DNA of 63,954 nucleotides from positions 1-63,954 of IMG/VR virus record IMGVR_UViG_3300004154_000014; one strand, given 5' to 3'. The notes under the pieces were generated by a model, which had not been told where the DNA came from, made no database searches, and worked only from the letters and a program-made list of their open reading frames with translations. The position numbers were made by a program, and so were the translations under genes. This DNA is from a virus. Each line of letters opens with the position of its first letter. Position 1 is the stretch's first letter. Shown here in pieces: positions 29,962-36,605 of this stretch.

Positions 29962-32118
29962 TTACTTGCCTGCCGGCTTGGCTTTGATCTGCTCTTTCTT
30001 GTGCTCGTTGTCCAACACTTTAAGTTGCGCTTGCGACCTGGCTTGCTCGCCTTGTTTCTGCAAGTCGCGCTCCTGTTTCACCCCACTTTCCTGTTCCACG
30101 AAGTCCAAGTTCTTCTGGTCGGTATCGGCGTCGAGATTCTCTTTCTTGGCACTTGCCAGCGGAATGTTGGCACGGTCGAGTTCGGCCCGGGCGATATAGG
30201 CCTGGGTCTGCGCCTGCTCTTTGGCCAACTGTGCTTCCTTGAGTGCCATCTCCAGTTCCATCAGCCGTTGCTGAGTGGGGTCGGGTTGAGGCTGGAATTC
30301 CAGGATACGGTGGGCCAGATCCGGCATCTTCCTGAGCTTGGCGATCTCGGCCAGAACCATCCGGGTGAATTCCCCGTCCATGTTGTTGCCAGTGGTCTGC
30401 AGCATGAACGCCAGTTGCTCGGCCTTGTTGTTGTCTTCCTCGGCCGTGGAGATCGACAGCACCAGGTCGAAGTTGCCCGGCAGGTCGTCGCGGCGCACGG
30501 TGACGAACTGCTCTTCGGTGATTCGGACCACTTCCTCTTCGCTGAGGAATACCGCGTTCATCGCCAGGATCTTGCGGCCAATCTCTACCACCCCTTCGGA
30601 GAGCCGGCGCAGCAGGCCCAGCTCGCGCTTGCTGGCCGCATCCAGAGCGCCGCGGATACCGGCGGCGACATCCCCAAGCGACTGGCTGCCCAGGCCCTGA
30701 CTGAATGCCTTGACCCCGGTGATCGCCTCGGCCTCCATGTTCTGCTGCATCAACACGAACTGGGCCGACTGGGGGATCTCCGGGTAGGTGAACATGTGGA
30801 AGACTTCCTGGGGTGCCACCCCTGGGTTGAATTCGAAGTCCTCACCATTGACGAACTTGCGGCGGTTGTTGGCGTCCAGGGCATCCTTGCGCATACCGAC
30901 CTGACCGTTGGCCGCCCGGCCGAGGATGTCGATCATCCCGCGGGTGACCGCGCCGGCGATCTTCTGATTGTCCTCGAGGAGTGCACCGTCCGGTTCGCCA
31001 TGGGTGTTGCGACGAACCGGCAGGTATTGCTTGATCACGAAGGGCAGGGCTTTATCCGGAAAGGGATTCTCTTCCATTCGGATACAGATGCTGCCTACCC
31101 ATGCGGCGACGATTGGCTTAACCAGACCAGTACCATCAATATCCCAATATCCCCAATACTCATAAACAATAAATTTCTTGCGAGCCTGGTCAGAGAAGTT
31201 GAAGGTCTGAGTACCAGTGTTCGTAGCATGGTCGGGCTCTCCCAGGATGGAGTTGTTGTCGATCTGAATCTTCTCGAGATTCTTGTAGCGACCGTCCGCT
31301 TTGAGGATCGACAGCGACGACTCGTAACGATGGATGATGAACCCGGCCTTGCTGAGGTCCCACTTGCAGGTCGGATCGATGATCACGTTACGGCTGTCGC
31401 AGACCTCGACGGTTGGCTGATTGAGGAGAGTACGGGTTTTGGCCCGCTTCTCCCAACCGGTGATCACCGGGCGATGAGGGGTCCCGGAGGCCACCGACAT
31501 CTTCAAGGCCGACTGCCATTCCTCACTGGTTTCAGACTGATACCGCCCCGGATCGCTCGCCTGCAGCTGCTGCAGTTCGGCGAGGGTCTGGGCTGCCATC
31601 GGATCTGGGACGAACTCGACGTTGGGCTCCTCGGCGAGGTACTCCTCTTCCCGATTGTCCCAGCCCACTTTGACGATCACCGTACCCTCATCCACCGCGG
31701 TACGCACGTACTCGTCGATGAAGGCCACCTTGCCGAGCTTGGTGTTGAATTGGTTGTTGAGCAGCAGTTGGTTCTGCTCCGCCCGGGCCTTGTCGTCCCA
31801 GGTCACCGGCTTGACCTTGAACAGATCCGGGGTGCTCAGGAAGGGTTCGGTCAATGCCGGATAGCGCCACTCGGCCTGTTTGCGAATCAGCTTTGGAACG
31901 ACCCCCGAATGACCGGGCGCCGGTTTGACAGCTGCCTTACCGGTGCCATTGAAGTTGTCCATCCACTCGTTGATCTTGCGCACCTGAACTTCGTGGTGCT
32001 GGCGCGAGTCCTCATAGTCCTGTTTCAAGTTGTTCAAGGTGGGTTCGTTCTTCCACCCGGTCATCTTCACAGGTTCGATTTCCAACCTATTTTCCAGTTT
32101 AAAATTGGCCAATTCCAT
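29962..32118 (-). CDS. Portal protein, N4 gp59-like
   Basis: 718 residues, near the size of N4 gp59 (763). It forms the dodecameric vertex for DNA packaging and tail attachment. The N-terminal part contains a segment rich in aromatic and basic residues (KQAEWRYPALTEPF). The centre has KAFSQGLGSQSLGDVAAGIRG, a stretch typical of N4-type portals. The last 120 residues are a long Gln/Lys/Glu helix, as in P22-like portal barrels. GTG at 32121 is an alternative start. Confidence 0.85.
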   Translation of the reverse strand: MELANFKLENRLEIEPVKMTGWKNEPTLNNLKQDYEDSRQHHEVQVRKINEWMDNFNGTGKAAVKPAPGHSGVVPKLIRKQAEWRYPALTEPFLSTPDLFKVKPVTWDDKARAEQNQLLLNNQFNTKLGKVAFIDEYVRTAVDEGTVIVKVGWDNREEEYLAEEPNVEFVPDPMAAQTLAELQQLQASDPGRYQSETSEEWQSALKMSVASGTPHRPVITGWEKRAKTRTLLNQPTVEVCDSRNVIIDPTCKWDLSKAGFIIHRYESSLSILKADGRYKNLEKIQIDNNSILGEPDHATNTGTQTFNFSDQARKKFIVYEYWGYWDIDGTGLVKPIVAAWVGSICIRMEENPFPDKALPFVIKQYLPVRRNTHGEPDGALLEDNQKIAGAVTRGMIDILGRAANGQVGMRKDALDANNRRKFVNGEDFEFNPGVAPQEVFHMFTYPEIPQSAQFVLMQQNMEAEAITGVKAFSQGLGSQSLGDVAAGIRGALDAASKRELGLLRRLSEGVVEIGRKILAMNAVFLSEEEVVRITEEQFVTVRRDDLPGNFDLVLSISTAEEDNNKAEQLAFMLQTTGNNMDGEFTRMVLAEIAKLRKMPDLAHRILEFQPQPDPTQQRLMELEMALKEAQLAKEQAQTQAYIARAELDRANIPLASAKKENLDADTDQKNLDFVEQESGVKQERDLQKQGEQARSQAQLKVLDNEHKKEQIKAKPAGK

Positions 32119-32121
32119 CAC

Positions 32122-32166: not shown

Positions 32167-32589
32167 ATGAAAATCCAGAAACTACGCGATATTCGCCTGC
32201 CAGAAAGAGCCACCCAATACTCTGGCGGCTACGACATCTACATGCCCGAAGACGGCACTATCGGTGGGATGTTCGGCCCTGCGAAAGTGGGGCTGGGATT
32301 TGCCACCGCTATTCCACCTGGCTTCGTCGCCCTGCTGTTGCCGCGTTCCGGTTGCGGTTCCAAGTTCGGTGTGGAGTTGCAGAACACCTGCGGCGTCATC
32401 GATGCCGACTACCGCGGGGAATGGTTTGCCACCTTGCGCACCAAGAACGGCGAAAAGTTCAGCTGGGAAAAAGGTGAGCGTGTATTGCAGATGATCCTGG
32501 TCCCGGTGATTACTCCAGATTTGGAAGTGGTCGACTCGTTGGATGAAACTTCCCGTGGCGCCGGAGGACTGGGCAGCACCGGGCGTTAA
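32167..32589 (+). CDS. dut: dUTP diphosphatase (dUTPase)
   Basis: Hydrolyses dUTP to dUMP, keeping uracil out of phage DNA and feeding dTMP synthesis. 140 residues, the usual trimeric dUTPase length, preceded by TTGGAGAG. All five family motifs are visible: SGGYDIYM, PRSGCGSK, GVIDADYRGE, GERVLQMI, and a C-terminal GLGSTGR arm that closes over the substrate. It is transcribed against the late genes around it, together with the next gene. Confidence 0.92.
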   Translation: MKIQKLRDIRLPERATQYSGGYDIYMPEDGTIGGMFGPAKVGLGFATAIPPGFVALLLPRSGCGSKFGVELQNTCGVIDADYRGEWFATLRTKNGEKFSWEKGERVLQMILVPVITPDLEVVDSLDETSRGAGGLGSTGR

Positions 32590-32608: not shown

Positions 32609-33037
32609 ATGATCCAGCAGTACATCGGCAGCAAACTTATCCAGGCCCAGGCCATGAACCGTCAGACCTATAACGACTACCGAAACTGGCAACTTCCCGA
32701 CGATGAGAACGGTAGTGACGAAGGCTACCTGGTCGAGTACCTGGATGGTGGCAAACCCAATCACCCGGAGCATGTTGGCTACATCAGCTGGTCCCCAAAG
32801 GAGCAGTTCGACAAGGCCTATATGCTGGTTGGCAAGATTGATCACCTACCACCATTCCATCAGCGTCTGATCGCCGAGAAAACCCAGTTGGATGACAAGA
32901 TCATCAAACTGAGCGCCTTCCTGGGTACCACTGCCTTCTACGCACTGAGTGCCCAAGCAGCCGAGTTGCTTCATACCCAGCTGCACTGGATGGAAAGGTA
33001 TTCTGACACCCTTGGGCAACGCATTGCCCAACTGTAA
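32609..33037 (+). CDS. Tad1/Acb2-like protein (candidate anti-Thoeris/anti-CBASS sponge)
   Basis: 142 residues. Residues 1-75 form a beta-rich domain with the conserved pattern KLIQAQAMNRQTYNDYRNWQ, DEGYLVEYLDGG, GYISWSPKEQFDKAY. Residues about 80-142 form a two-helix hairpin (HQRLIAEKTQLDDKIIKLSAFL, then AAELLHTQLHWMERYSDTLGQRI), which I recognise as the Acb2/Tad1 hairpin domain. Known Tad1 and Acb2 proteins bind and sequester cyclic nucleotide or gcADPR immune signals. Many hairpin-domain phage proteins are untested, so sponge activity is inference. It lies 19 bases after dut and is probably co-expressed with it. Confidence 0.65.
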   Translation: MIQQYIGSKLIQAQAMNRQTYNDYRNWQLPDDENGSDEGYLVEYLDGGKPNHPEHVGYISWSPKEQFDKAYMLVGKIDHLPPFHQRLIAEKTQLDDKIIKLSAFLGTTAFYALSAQAAELLHTQLHWMERYSDTLGQRIAQL

Positions 33038-33067: not shown

Positions 33068-33511
33068 TCAATAGGTGTTGCACAGGGTTTGACCAGCTAC
33101 CCGGTTGCAGTAGGTCTGCCTGGGCCGATTATTGATCATGTTCTGCAGGGATTCCTGCTGGTCCTGGGCATTTTGATTATGGGTATCGATCTGACGGGTG
33201 CGCTCGGATACCCACATGGCGAACTTGTTGCAGGCTTCACGGCTGACTGTCGGGAAGTTTTGTTCGGTTACCTGCAGTTGTGTGGTCATTCGGCTCAGAT
33301 CATACCGATATGCATTGAGATCCGACTTGATATAAGCGACCCCCAATGAGGCGCTCTCGGGGCTGGTGTAACCCAGTGTCCCGCATTTGGTACCACCCAC
33401 TATTTCTTGTGCTGCTACGGCATAGCCGGCATCAGGTAACTCGGGACGGGGTGTGGAAGCGCAGCCCACCAGCAGTAGCGTGCTGCACAATCCCAGCGAT
33501 TTCAACGTCAT
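33068..33511 (-). CDS. Phage lipoprotein, 147 aa
   Basis: Start at 33511 chosen for its GGAAAGAG site and because it gives a classic lipoprotein signal: MTLKSLGLCST, then LLLVGC with the lipid-modified cysteine at about residue 18. The mature part has four further cysteines (KCGTLGY, EACNKF, TYCNRV, TLCNTY), suggesting disulfides in the periplasm. Phage lipoproteins in this setting often block superinfection or act as Rz1-like spanins, but the length and cysteines argue against Rz1. It lies within the late block beside the gp67-like gene. Confidence 0.7.
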   Translation of the reverse strand: MTLKSLGLCSTLLLVGCASTPRPELPDAGYAVAAQEIVGGTKCGTLGYTSPESASLGVAYIKSDLNAYRYDLSRMTTQLQVTEQNFPTVSREACNKFAMWVSERTRQIDTHNQNAQDQQESLQNMINNRPRQTYCNRVAGQTLCNTY

Positions 33512-33573
33512 TGCGCTCTTTCCATGAGGGGAGGCGGTCATGGTAGCCAAGCCCTCCCCTCCACCACAACGCC

Positions 33574-34287
33574 TTACACCCAACCGTTGCGGTACAGGCG
33601 GTAGTTCTCGAGGCCTTCCCGCAGTTCGTTACCCTGGCTTTCCAGGCGCTGACAGGAGGCCTCGAACAGGGCCATGTAGTTGTTCCCCTCATGGAAATCG
33701 TCGGTGATCCCGCCCGGGTTGTGTAGGCGCCAGGCCACGTAGAACAGTAGGGCCTCCAGGTGGGTCCACGGCAGCTCCACCTCCACGTTCGCCGGATTCC
33801 AGCCCAGGCCCCCATGCATGATTCGCGGCGCCGCTGCCCGGTAGAACACCTCCACGTAGTCCCCCTTGACCTCGGCCGGCACGATCACCGTCTGCATCGT
33901 CAGCGCGTGCAAGCTGCCGGTGAAGCTCTGGTGGCCAAGCTCCAGCTCGCAACCATCCTCCCGGTAGACCCGCTCGATCTTGAGCAGGCGGTCGTCGGTG
34001 AAGGGCTCGGCGCTGTCGTCCAGGTACTGCACCGCCTCGCTCGAAGAGGTATTGGACTGGGCGAAACGCTCGGCCAACAGGTAGCTCTCCTGTCCTTCCT
34101 GCCGCACCACCCGGACGCTTCCCAGGCGCAGCAGGAAGCGTTTGTGCAGCTCGAGCACCCCGAGGTTCACCGAGTTGAGCACCTTGACCTGCAAGGCGCC
34201 GGTGAGGCCCAGGGTTTCATTGCCCCCGGCGGCCATCTGCCACAGCTCGCCGTGGGTCAGTTGGTTGAAGATTTCTTGCAGTTTCAT
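33574..34287 (-). CDS. N4 gp67-like structural protein (head-tail connector candidate)
   Basis: 237 residues directly downstream of terminase (6-base gap), as N4 gp67 is beside gp68. It is mostly beta-rich in the middle (residues 40-150), with a helical end carrying LPWTHLEALLFYVAWRLHNPGG and NNYMALFEASCQRLE. That pattern is typical of podovirus adaptor or connector proteins that bind the portal. Assigned by synteny and general features. Confidence 0.65.
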   Translation of the reverse strand: MKLQEIFNQLTHGELWQMAAGGNETLGLTGALQVKVLNSVNLGVLELHKRFLLRLGSVRVVRQEGQESYLLAERFAQSNTSSSEAVQYLDDSAEPFTDDRLLKIERVYREDGCELELGHQSFTGSLHALTMQTVIVPAEVKGDYVEVFYRAAAPRIMHGGLGWNPANVEVELPWTHLEALLFYVAWRLHNPGGITDDFHEGNNYMALFEASCQRLESQGNELREGLENYRLYRNGWV

Positions 34288-34293
34288 GGGACC

Positions 34294-35916
34294 TCACACG
34301 ATATAGGAAGACATTCGGCTTGATTCTTGCATTCCAGTGTCCATCTCCCAAATCCCCGAATTGTCCTTGGACATTTCCAGATCCTGGGTCGGGCGCCAGC
34401 TCTTGAGCGCCGAGAGCATCGAGATACTGTCAATAAAGTCATCATGCTTGCTCTTGAAGCCAGCTGGGGAAGCCAGGGAGAGTTCGCTGTACATCTCCAG
34501 CATCACCGGCAGTTCCTTGAACTCGATCGGGAAGAACACCTTGTGCAGCTTGAACTGTGGGACCATGGTCTGGAACCGCACCAGCTTGTTGGTGTTGGGC
34601 CTGATCCCCGGCATGGCTCCGTTGTTGTCCGAGGCCAGGTTGAAGAAGATGTTGCGGTTCATCATCTCGTTCTGAATCCAGCGCACGAATCCCCCCTGCT
34701 GTCCGCTCACCTCGATCCCCACCTCCAGGGGTCGGTAGGTCGAAACCAGACGGAACAGATCGTCGATGGTCACATCCATCAGTTGGCGCTTGCAGATCCC
34801 GTCCACCCAGAACCAGTCCCCGTTCGCACTGTAGGCCCAGACACTGATCACGCAGAAGTCAGCCGATTGCTTCTCGCTGGTGGCGAAGTCGGTGGTGATG
34901 TACCAGTTGAAGAAGCCCTTGTTCCTGACCACATTGCCATGGCGGTACCAGCCAATCTCATGGTCCTGGATCAACCGATCCTCGGCGGACATGATCCGCA
35001 GCATCAGCTCCTGGTTGAAGGTGTCGACCTTGCCAGCCTTCACTGACTGGTCGTACTTTAGCTTCACGTAGTCGTAGTTGAAGCGGTCGTCCCAGGCTCC
35101 CTTGAATTCCTCCCGCGTGCAGGGGAAGCGCTCGCACACCGGATAGACGTTGACCTTCCAGGCTCCCGACTCGATCGCCTTGTACAGCGGGTCCCTGGCA
35201 TTGAACGGGGTTCCCGACCAAATGATCTTGTTGCGCTTGGGGTGCAGGGCGTAGTCGATCGCCTTGTAGACCGTGGCCTCGATGCTGGCGATCACCGTTT
35301 CCGAACGGGCATCCTCGTCCGAGAGCAGGTCGTCGAGCACTGCCAGCTGGGGTCGCTTGCCCATCTCCTTGGAACCCCGTACCCCGGTCTTGGCCCCGTA
35401 GCCCTTGACGATGAACACGTTGCCATCCCGGTTGCGGAACTCCCAGCGGATGTCGGTGAAGCGGATTTCCGGGATGTAATGCCTGAGAAAATCGCTATTT
35501 TCCCAGCGAAATTCCAGGTTTTTCCGCATGTTTTTCACGCCGTTTTCGATCGAATCTGACACGTAAAGGGCCAGATCCACCTTGCCGAAACCAGGCAGCA
35601 CACCGTAGACACCCAGGTAGAGAAACAGGTATTCCCCCAGCAGGGTGGTCTTGGCAGCCCCCCGGAACACCATGTTGGCGATCCGTGGCGTATCCCCAGC
35701 CACCTGGTCCAGCATCCGGTAGTGGAGTACCGGAGTCTTGTTCTCTTCCCCGGCCTCCCCGTTCACCAGCTTGATGAAGGCCACGAATTCCAGGGCGAAG
35801 TCACTGGGGATGTATCCCGGGTCATCCCCGTAGAACGCTTCGTTCAGCCAATCCTCAACGGACTTCGCAGCCAGCACATCCGCCACTGCCGAAGCCAGAG
35901 GGGAAAGAGTGGGCAT
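34294..35916 (-). CDS. Terminase large subunit, N4 gp68-like
   Basis: Packages DNA into the prohead: an N-terminal ATPase motor and a C-terminal nuclease. 540 residues. A Walker A-like FRGAAKTTLL lies at about 84-93, Walker B is QLAVLDDLLSDED, and the RNase H-fold nuclease starts TTDFATSEKQSADFCVI with further acidic residues in KHDDFIDSISML. The start codon overlaps the stop of the upstream gp69-like gene (ATGA), so the pair is coupled. Confidence 0.92.
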   Translation of the reverse strand: MPTLSPLASAVADVLAAKSVEDWLNEAFYGDDPGYIPSDFALEFVAFIKLVNGEAGEENKTPVLHYRMLDQVAGDTPRIANMVFRGAAKTTLLGEYLFLYLGVYGVLPGFGKVDLALYVSDSIENGVKNMRKNLEFRWENSDFLRHYIPEIRFTDIRWEFRNRDGNVFIVKGYGAKTGVRGSKEMGKRPQLAVLDDLLSDEDARSETVIASIEATVYKAIDYALHPKRNKIIWSGTPFNARDPLYKAIESGAWKVNVYPVCERFPCTREEFKGAWDDRFNYDYVKLKYDQSVKAGKVDTFNQELMLRIMSAEDRLIQDHEIGWYRHGNVVRNKGFFNWYITTDFATSEKQSADFCVISVWAYSANGDWFWVDGICKRQLMDVTIDDLFRLVSTYRPLEVGIEVSGQQGGFVRWIQNEMMNRNIFFNLASDNNGAMPGIRPNTNKLVRFQTMVPQFKLHKVFFPIEFKELPVMLEMYSELSLASPAGFKSKHDDFIDSISMLSALKSWRPTQDLEMSKDNSGIWEMDTGMQESSRMSSYIV

Positions 35917-36605
35917 CACGGCTGGGGCTCCTGGTCGATCACCAGACGCTGCCCGGCTACCTCCTTGGCATCCAGCGCCCCGGCTGCCAGCATCTGCTTC
36001 TGCTGGGCCACCAGATCCATCACTGCCGCTCGCAGGTTGCCGATCGCCCCGTCGTCCTTCACCCCGATGTCCAGTTGCACCTTGCTGGTTTCCGGCATCT
36101 TCAAGTGGGTGAGCAGGGAGTTGGCCGCATCGGTCCTGACCTTCTCGCTCTGGGCCGTCAGCATCAGGTCGGCCTGCACATTGAGTGCCTTCTGGTAGAG
36201 GTCCTGGTTTAACACGTAGTGCGGCGTCAGGGTCTGCTCGAAAATCTGCATCACCAACTTCGACTTGTTGTAGGCGGTGATGTAACTGGCGATGTCCTTG
36301 CTCGCTACCCCACGCATGACGAATGACTGGTAGCGATCGGGGAAGGTCTTGATATACGCATCGGTGTTGGTGCAGCCCATCAACTTGTGGCTGACATACT
36401 TCACCGCATTGATGTAGTCGGGCATCCGGAACTTGCCGTTCTGCATCACCGAGGTGTAGCCAAGCAGATTGTCCCGGTAGTTCTCGAACATGTCCGGATC
36501 ACTGAGCAAGTCGGTGATCTGTTTGATCAGGTCGGGATTGATGGACTTCTTGAGGGAAGGCGGCAGCACTTCCTTGAACTGCTCGATGGTCATGGAAATG
36601 GACAT
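35916..36605 (-). CDS. N4 gp69-like protein, possible small terminase partner
   Basis: 229 residues, first gene of the leftward late block and overlapping terminase. Its position matches N4 gp69. It is helical and moderately charged. The last 60 residues include a conserved-looking KVQLDIGVKDDGAIGNLRAAVMDLV and a Gln-rich helix. In N4 relatives this gene pairs with the large terminase, and a small-subunit or DNA-recognition role is plausible but not shown by motifs. Confidence 0.6.
   Translation of the reverse strand: MSISMTIEQFKEVLPPSLKKSINPDLIKQITDLLSDPDMFENYRDNLLGYTSVMQNGKFRMPDYINAVKYVSHKLMGCTNTDAYIKTFPDRYQSFVMRGVASKDIASYITAYNKSKLVMQIFEQTLTPHYVLNQDLYQKALNVQADLMLTAQSEKVRTDAANSLLTHLKMPETSKVQLDIGVKDDGAIGNLRAAVMDLVAQQKQMLAAGALDAKEVAGQRLVIDQEPQP

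Follow-up and report, generated by a model that had tools for sequence, protein, structure and literature searches.

In a virus record of 63,954 nucleotides (IMG/VR IMGVR_UViG_3300004154_000014, analysed whole and here called the window), a short gene next to a dUTPase gene encodes a 142-aa protein, which an earlier note had read as a member of the Acb2/Tad1 hairpin family that sequesters immune-signal nucleotides. What kind of protein is this, and does the company it keeps among phage genes point to a part in countering host immune signalling?

The locus and its two-domain protein

The open reading frame runs on the + strand from an ATG at 32609 to a stop codon ending at 33037, with a GAGGG ribosome-site-like stretch directly 5′ of the start, and is as small and intact as the earlier note had described. 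Because relatives were found by tblastn in 62 viral contigs (the best sharing 62% identity across residues 1-140), and because the product matches Pfam family PF21825 and PHROG 872, we regard it as more than a chance reading frame. Its start lies 19 bp downstream of the stop codon of dut (32167-32589, +), a co-directional gene identified by Pfam as a dUTPase (E 1.7e-21) and by the NCBIfam dut model above its cut-off. The pairing with dut that had been pointed out previously is correct as a matter of position; other genes follow dut in related phages.

Together the two genes form a + strand island among − strand genes for the major capsid protein, portal, p237 and terminase. The portal gene (29962-32121, −), which matches the annotated portal of phage Pa2 at 51%, lies on one side; on the other lie the gene for p237 (33574-34287, −), a virion-structural-type protein of 237 aa, and that for the terminase large subunit (34294-35919, −). 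Because the terminase shares 67% identity with Litunavirus terminases, and counterparts of the portal, capsid and p237 are found in Litunavirus Pa2, we assign the source record, on sequence grounds, to an N4-like phage (Schitoviridae-type) or a fragment of one. A putative small lipoprotein-like ORF (33068-33535, −), with a signal-peptide-like start carrying a cysteine, is located between the gene of interest and that for p237; it had no Pfam match and, the window itself aside, no homologue in the syntenic loci compared. A scan for promoters and terminators returned signals at chance level only.

The protein divides into two parts. Its C-terminal residues 81-140 (32849-33028, +) match PF21825 with 59.8 bits (E 2.4e-16; curated cut-off 24.8), a family described in Pfam as crAss001_48 related protein, in an entry that names no function. 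The preceding domain, here ND (residues 1-75; 32609-32833, +), matches PHROG 872 over residues 2-74 (E 7.7e-28), a group of unknown function, and aligns with 108 other ND domains. No Pfam model matched ND (residues 1-74), NCBIfam gave nothing for the protein, and neither the Tad2-like family PF11195 nor the Acb4 family PF13876 matched it.

An AlphaFold2 model built from 40 related rows (pLDDT 95.9) agrees with the N-terminal beta domain and C-terminal two-helix hairpin of the earlier description. It places a small mixed beta domain at about residues 1-75 (strands 3-6, 10-15, 39-44, 58-63 and 72-75; short helices 18-24 and 64-70) before a long antiparallel two-helix hairpin at residues 82-140 (helices 82-104 and 115-140). 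Predicted alone from 109 rows, ND reached a pLDDT of 96.1. ND is the most conserved part, with 25 residues invariant among 51 aligned proteins. In the hairpin, R86, E90, K91, L94, D95, L101, Q124, M128 and L135 (window-protein numbering) are invariant across 55 proteins; by our reading of the alignment, the T4 hairpin protein DenB.1 replaces K91 and D95 and keeps R86, E90, Q124 and R138. Conserved polar residues on both helices would fit a surface for binding or for assembly.

Comparison with solved structures gave no significant relatives, whether by sequence (best E 0.86, unrelated), by a 40-row profile (best E 0.3, no match) or with the whole model against the PDB in Foldseek (nothing at E ≤ 0.001; SPO1 Tad2 at a non-significant E 1.5). 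ND alone found nothing below E 3.7, and its best VIA-align hit, to chromodomains at Z 2.8, is too weak for use. Among the matches listed, the PDB look-alikes of the hairpin (Foldseek and VIA-align, monomer model) are generic helical hairpins only. In a library of viral models, the hairpin matched the 63-aa crAss001 protein with a TM-score of 0.98 on the target, in line with its PF21825 membership; other matches there include a Tad2-like protein and an RyR-domain protein of Yersinia phage TG1. The crAss001 protein and T4 DenB.1 consist of the hairpin alone, whereas here the hairpin follows ND.

The Acb2/Tad1 hairpin family

A small helical hairpin behind a small beta domain recalls the Acb2/Tad1 family, which Pfam unites as PF24729, and the two share a functional neighbourhood: ND is fused to a real Tad1 in three loci (L097, L127 and L136). 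Sequence profiles nevertheless speak strongly against membership. PF24729 did not match the protein up to E 1 and, run against all frames of the record, gave nothing up to E 10, despite recovering its positive controls, T4 Vs.4 (70 bits) and PaP2 p26 (65 bits), the second of which is the protein in PDB entry 8h2j. The strong match is instead to another family, PF21825. T4 carries both kinds of hairpin, Vs.4 (PF24729) and DenB.1 (PF21825).

The comparison with Tad1 and Acb2 that had been proposed, run here profile against profile (64 hairpin, 68 Acb2 and 73 Tad1 sequences), found no similarity: probabilities were 2.9/2.7 for the hairpin with Acb2 and 0.4/0.4 with the Tad1 hairpin, against 21/46 for Acb2 with Tad1 and 100 for two halves of the hairpin set. 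This test has modest sensitivity, with even Acb2 and Tad1 scoring below 50, but it still sets the hairpin apart from that pair. PF24729 chains are also absent among the matches listed in both PDB searches, which excludes nothing. On the profiles we reject membership in the Acb2/Tad1 family, a reading we consider very improbable. The earlier note had therefore described the protein correctly under the wrong family name; the functional class that it guessed, a sponge, is plausible on the newly gathered evidence, drawing support from the partner domains of ND and hairpin and from exchange within one genomic slot.

Partners of ND and of the hairpin

We took a census of the C-terminal partners of ND with a search on ND only, which favours no C-terminal domain, covering the best 80 of at least 546 loci, all near relatives. 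ND-Tad2 proteins make up 66 of them (57, plus 6 duplicates and 3 scored as two Tad2 segments) and ND-hairpin proteins 9; ND-Tad2-hairpin, ND-PF13876 and ND-PF13876-Tad2 occur once each, one locus lacks a scored partner (L576) and one is cut by a contig end. Tad2 thus totals 68, PF21825 10 and PF13876 2. Run against 398 genomes, the ND profile matched the source genome only and so yielded no further census.

Pfam assignments give the same set of partners. Among 51 of 62 viral ND proteins scanned (duplicates, near-duplicates and one truncated ORF omitted), the Tad2-like family PF11195 was found in 36, PF21825 in 12 and PF13876 in 2; among 79 of 80 proteins from bacterial genome contigs (one of 38 aa omitted), the counts were 47, 17 and 10, with PF24729 in 2, just under its cut-off. 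At E ≤ 1e-3, these 130 proteins matched no further Pfam family. Solved chains agree with two of the partner assignments: the Tad1 part of an ND-Tad1 protein (L127) matches PDB entries 8kbb (E 2.4e-34), 7uav and 8smd (both E 1e-15), and for the Tad2 part of L054 the match to solved Tad2 chains has E 1e-28. The ND-Tad1 link comprises three genome-contig proteins, and ND was seen in none of 80 viral Tad1 loci. In the T4-like Yersinia phage TG1, ND (profile E 1.2e-11) is followed by an RyR domain (Pfam E 3.9e-10; L313, 1159-1803), a fusion found in one protein only.

ND is accordingly a conserved anchor common to Tad2, Acb4, Tad1 and RyR proteins. The SPO1 Acb4 has been placed in PF13876, and all eight Acb4 homologues tested bound 3′3′-cGAMP (PMC11722364); phage RyR proteins have been reported as degraders of ADP-ribose signals (PMC13232231). 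Every ND partner identified in this analysis whose role is established deals with immune nucleotides; PF21825 is the sole common partner without such a role. Among the open-licence papers searched, none described a function for PF21825 or DenB.1.

Several proteins met along the way are worth recording. The TG1 fusion is a candidate enzyme of two domains acting on ADP-ribose signals. Some proteins (L143, L135, L054 and L039) stack several domains in a single chain, as ND-Acb4-Tad2 or ND-Tad2-hairpin, and are apparently multi-signal sponges. Pfam names PF13876 after N4 gp49 and Sf6 gene 66, yet N4 gp49 (L301, 2983-3465) consists of ND and a Tad2-like domain and has no match to the family named 'N4 Gp49'. 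In Pseudomonas phage HHBS51_1 (L317, 811-1193), the ND region is split over several tiny annotated ORFs and the ND gene looks decayed; the adjoining gene has an Acb2-like start. Coordinates had suggested an ND-Acb2 fusion there, which we rejected, as the parts are annotated as separate ORFs and ND looks broken.

Seen from the hairpin, the same partners recur. Among 63 hairpin ORFs, no other scored domain is present in 41; ND-hairpin proteins number 13, PF13876-hairpin proteins 5 and ND-Tad2-hairpin proteins 2, with one ND-hairpin-PF13876 and one Tad2-hairpin. In the 55 hairpin proteins scanned (from 65; duplicates and two fragments omitted), Pfam found PF13876 six times and Tad2 twice, and it confirms the double or triple make-up of L039, L054, L079, L135 and L196. 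The hairpin gene adjoins a separate Acb4-domain or ND-Tad2 gene at 7 of 65 loci; the other 58 lack a separate sponge gene within the DNA retrieved. Within the nine ND-hairpin loci, a lone Tad2 is the next gene in two (L561 and L619) and an Acb4-domain gene precedes in one (L566). Across ND loci generally, a separate domain of a sponge-associated kind was found at 31 of 80. For comparison, any ND, Tad2, Tad1, Acb2 or Acb4 domain was present at 1 of 80 dut-centred and 10 of 80 terminase-centred control loci, yardsticks that come mostly from N4-like phages and form an imperfect background.

These counts bear on the possibility that the protein is an accessory factor with another job, such as host takeover, protein-protein inhibition or nucleotide metabolism, its fusions to sponge domains reflecting general shuffling of small domains. 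Hairpins are indeed also joined to stretches without a Pfam match (L149 and Klebsiella phage LASTA), and the gene adjoins dut. We nevertheless think this unlikely, given the narrow choice of partners (four Pfam families in 130 ND proteins, three of them with known sponges), the 31 ND loci with a separate sponge-kind domain against one dut-centred control, and the changing content of the dut-neighbour slot described below.

Hairpins in LASTA (L314, 1345-2220), L149 and L194 are accompanied by a stretch, placed in the middle or at the N-terminus, that follows the pattern 'RKKPVVIEA ... GDWIIxGxKGEHYPCKPDIF'. It has no Pfam match in LASTA or L149 and looks like a further uncharacterised domain shuffled among phages.

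T4, crAss001 and many contigs have the hairpin without ND. T4 DenB.1, a 64-aa protein annotated as hypothetical, is a lone PF21825 hairpin (67.3 bits; L306, 944-1138; NC_000866, 167743-167937). Because the hairpin is also found alone, it must work without ND.

This weighs on a different division of labour, in which ND would bind the signal and the hairpin would serve as an assembly module, the two being joined since multimers bind better. Two-helix hairpins often oligomerise, those resembling this one in the PDB are generic among the matches listed, and ND, with its 25 invariant residues in 51 proteins, is retained while the C-terminal domain varies. Against this stand the hairpins that lack ND, and the Tad2 and Acb4 domains that act as sponges without it, in published proteins of about 88-97 aa. 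We judge ND as the signal binder to be distinctly unlikely.

The portal/p237 slot and a proposed role

The slot between portal and p237 offers a view of what can replace the protein. One relative (L019) has the same gene order as the window, portal, dut, X, p237 and terminase, where X is an ND-Tad2 protein; identities to the window are 73% for ND, 49% for dut and 51% for portal. Such ND-Tad2 proteins, N4 gp49 among them, share ND with the window protein and differ in carrying the Tad2-like PF11195 in place of the hairpin.

Both flanks were in reach at 82 of 163 loci, and dropping 17 that share a p237 start left 65 non-redundant slots. Of these, 54 contain dut but no scored domain, 5 contain neither and 6 contain a scored domain: ND-hairpin in the window, ND-Tad2 in L019, PF13876 in L338 and a lone hairpin in L365, L419 and L446. 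These slot domains were checked with Pfam, and both the L338 PF13876 and the L446 hairpin stand after dut; the window and L365 go without a dut label in this tally, as the dut frames there extend beyond the interval. Acb4 domains (PF13876) thus resemble the hairpin in partnering ND, in being fused to PF21825 and in holding this slot, whereas their reported fold of three beta strands and helices is a different one (PMC11722364). Litunavirus Pa2 has an unrelated 99-aa ORF without a Pfam match as the second gene of its dut slot. The slot by dut is a place of accessory-gene turnover: since its contents vary, adjacency to dut is no evidence of working with that enzyme.

The same comparison bears on a role in the virion or in packaging. 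The gene lies between those for portal and terminase, and a relative encoded by phage pPa_SNUABM_DT01 is likened, in a database note, to a decoration protein. Yet the gene stands after dut on the strand opposite the structural genes, the protein is missing from most related slots, and relatives turn up in unrelated gene neighbourhoods; we find a structural role scarcely credible.

We somewhat favour the reading of the window protein as a modular phage counter-immunity (counter-signalling) protein with the hairpin as its candidate sponge. Functional support comes from the domain make-up, the partners of ND and hairpin, gene adjacency and exchange within one slot, from which we infer ligand binding; fusion and neighbourhood amount to shared context, not shared chemistry. 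ND would be a module that phages repeatedly set before immune-signal sponge domains, and the hairpin would occupy the place that Tad2, Acb4 or Tad1 hold in relatives. Known sponges are all oligomers with pockets between protomers, according to the Acb4 study (PMC11722364). In the most probable mechanism, the hairpin would likewise oligomerise, as standalone hairpins of 63-70 aa would offer little room for a pocket otherwise, and would bind a nucleotide immune signal, a cyclic oligonucleotide or an ADP-ribose derivative, between its protomers. CBASS- or Thoeris-type effectors would thereby stay inactive and the phage be protected, while ND might help assembly or contribute to binding.

A broader proposal, which we hold tentatively and a little short of even, is that PF21825 hairpins, T4 DenB.1 included, are a fifth type of sponge, separate from Acb2, Tad1, Tad2 and Acb4, and that ND is the shared N-terminal adaptor of a toolkit whose sponge domains, differing in ligand range, are swapped, stacked within a single chain or placed in adjoining genes. 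If so, a hairpin family spanning crAss-like phages to T4 would gain a first function, phages would be seen to assemble anti-signalling proteins from interchangeable parts, and ND would serve as bait for further sponge domains. T4 denB.1 and N4 gp49 belong to laboratory phages of E. coli, which makes the prediction directly testable.

N4-like phages also have a second accessory slot: an ND-Tad2 or lone Tad2 gene lies between or beside the genes for p246 and the terminase large subunit in L411, L412, L417, L418, L421, L429, L446 and L449.
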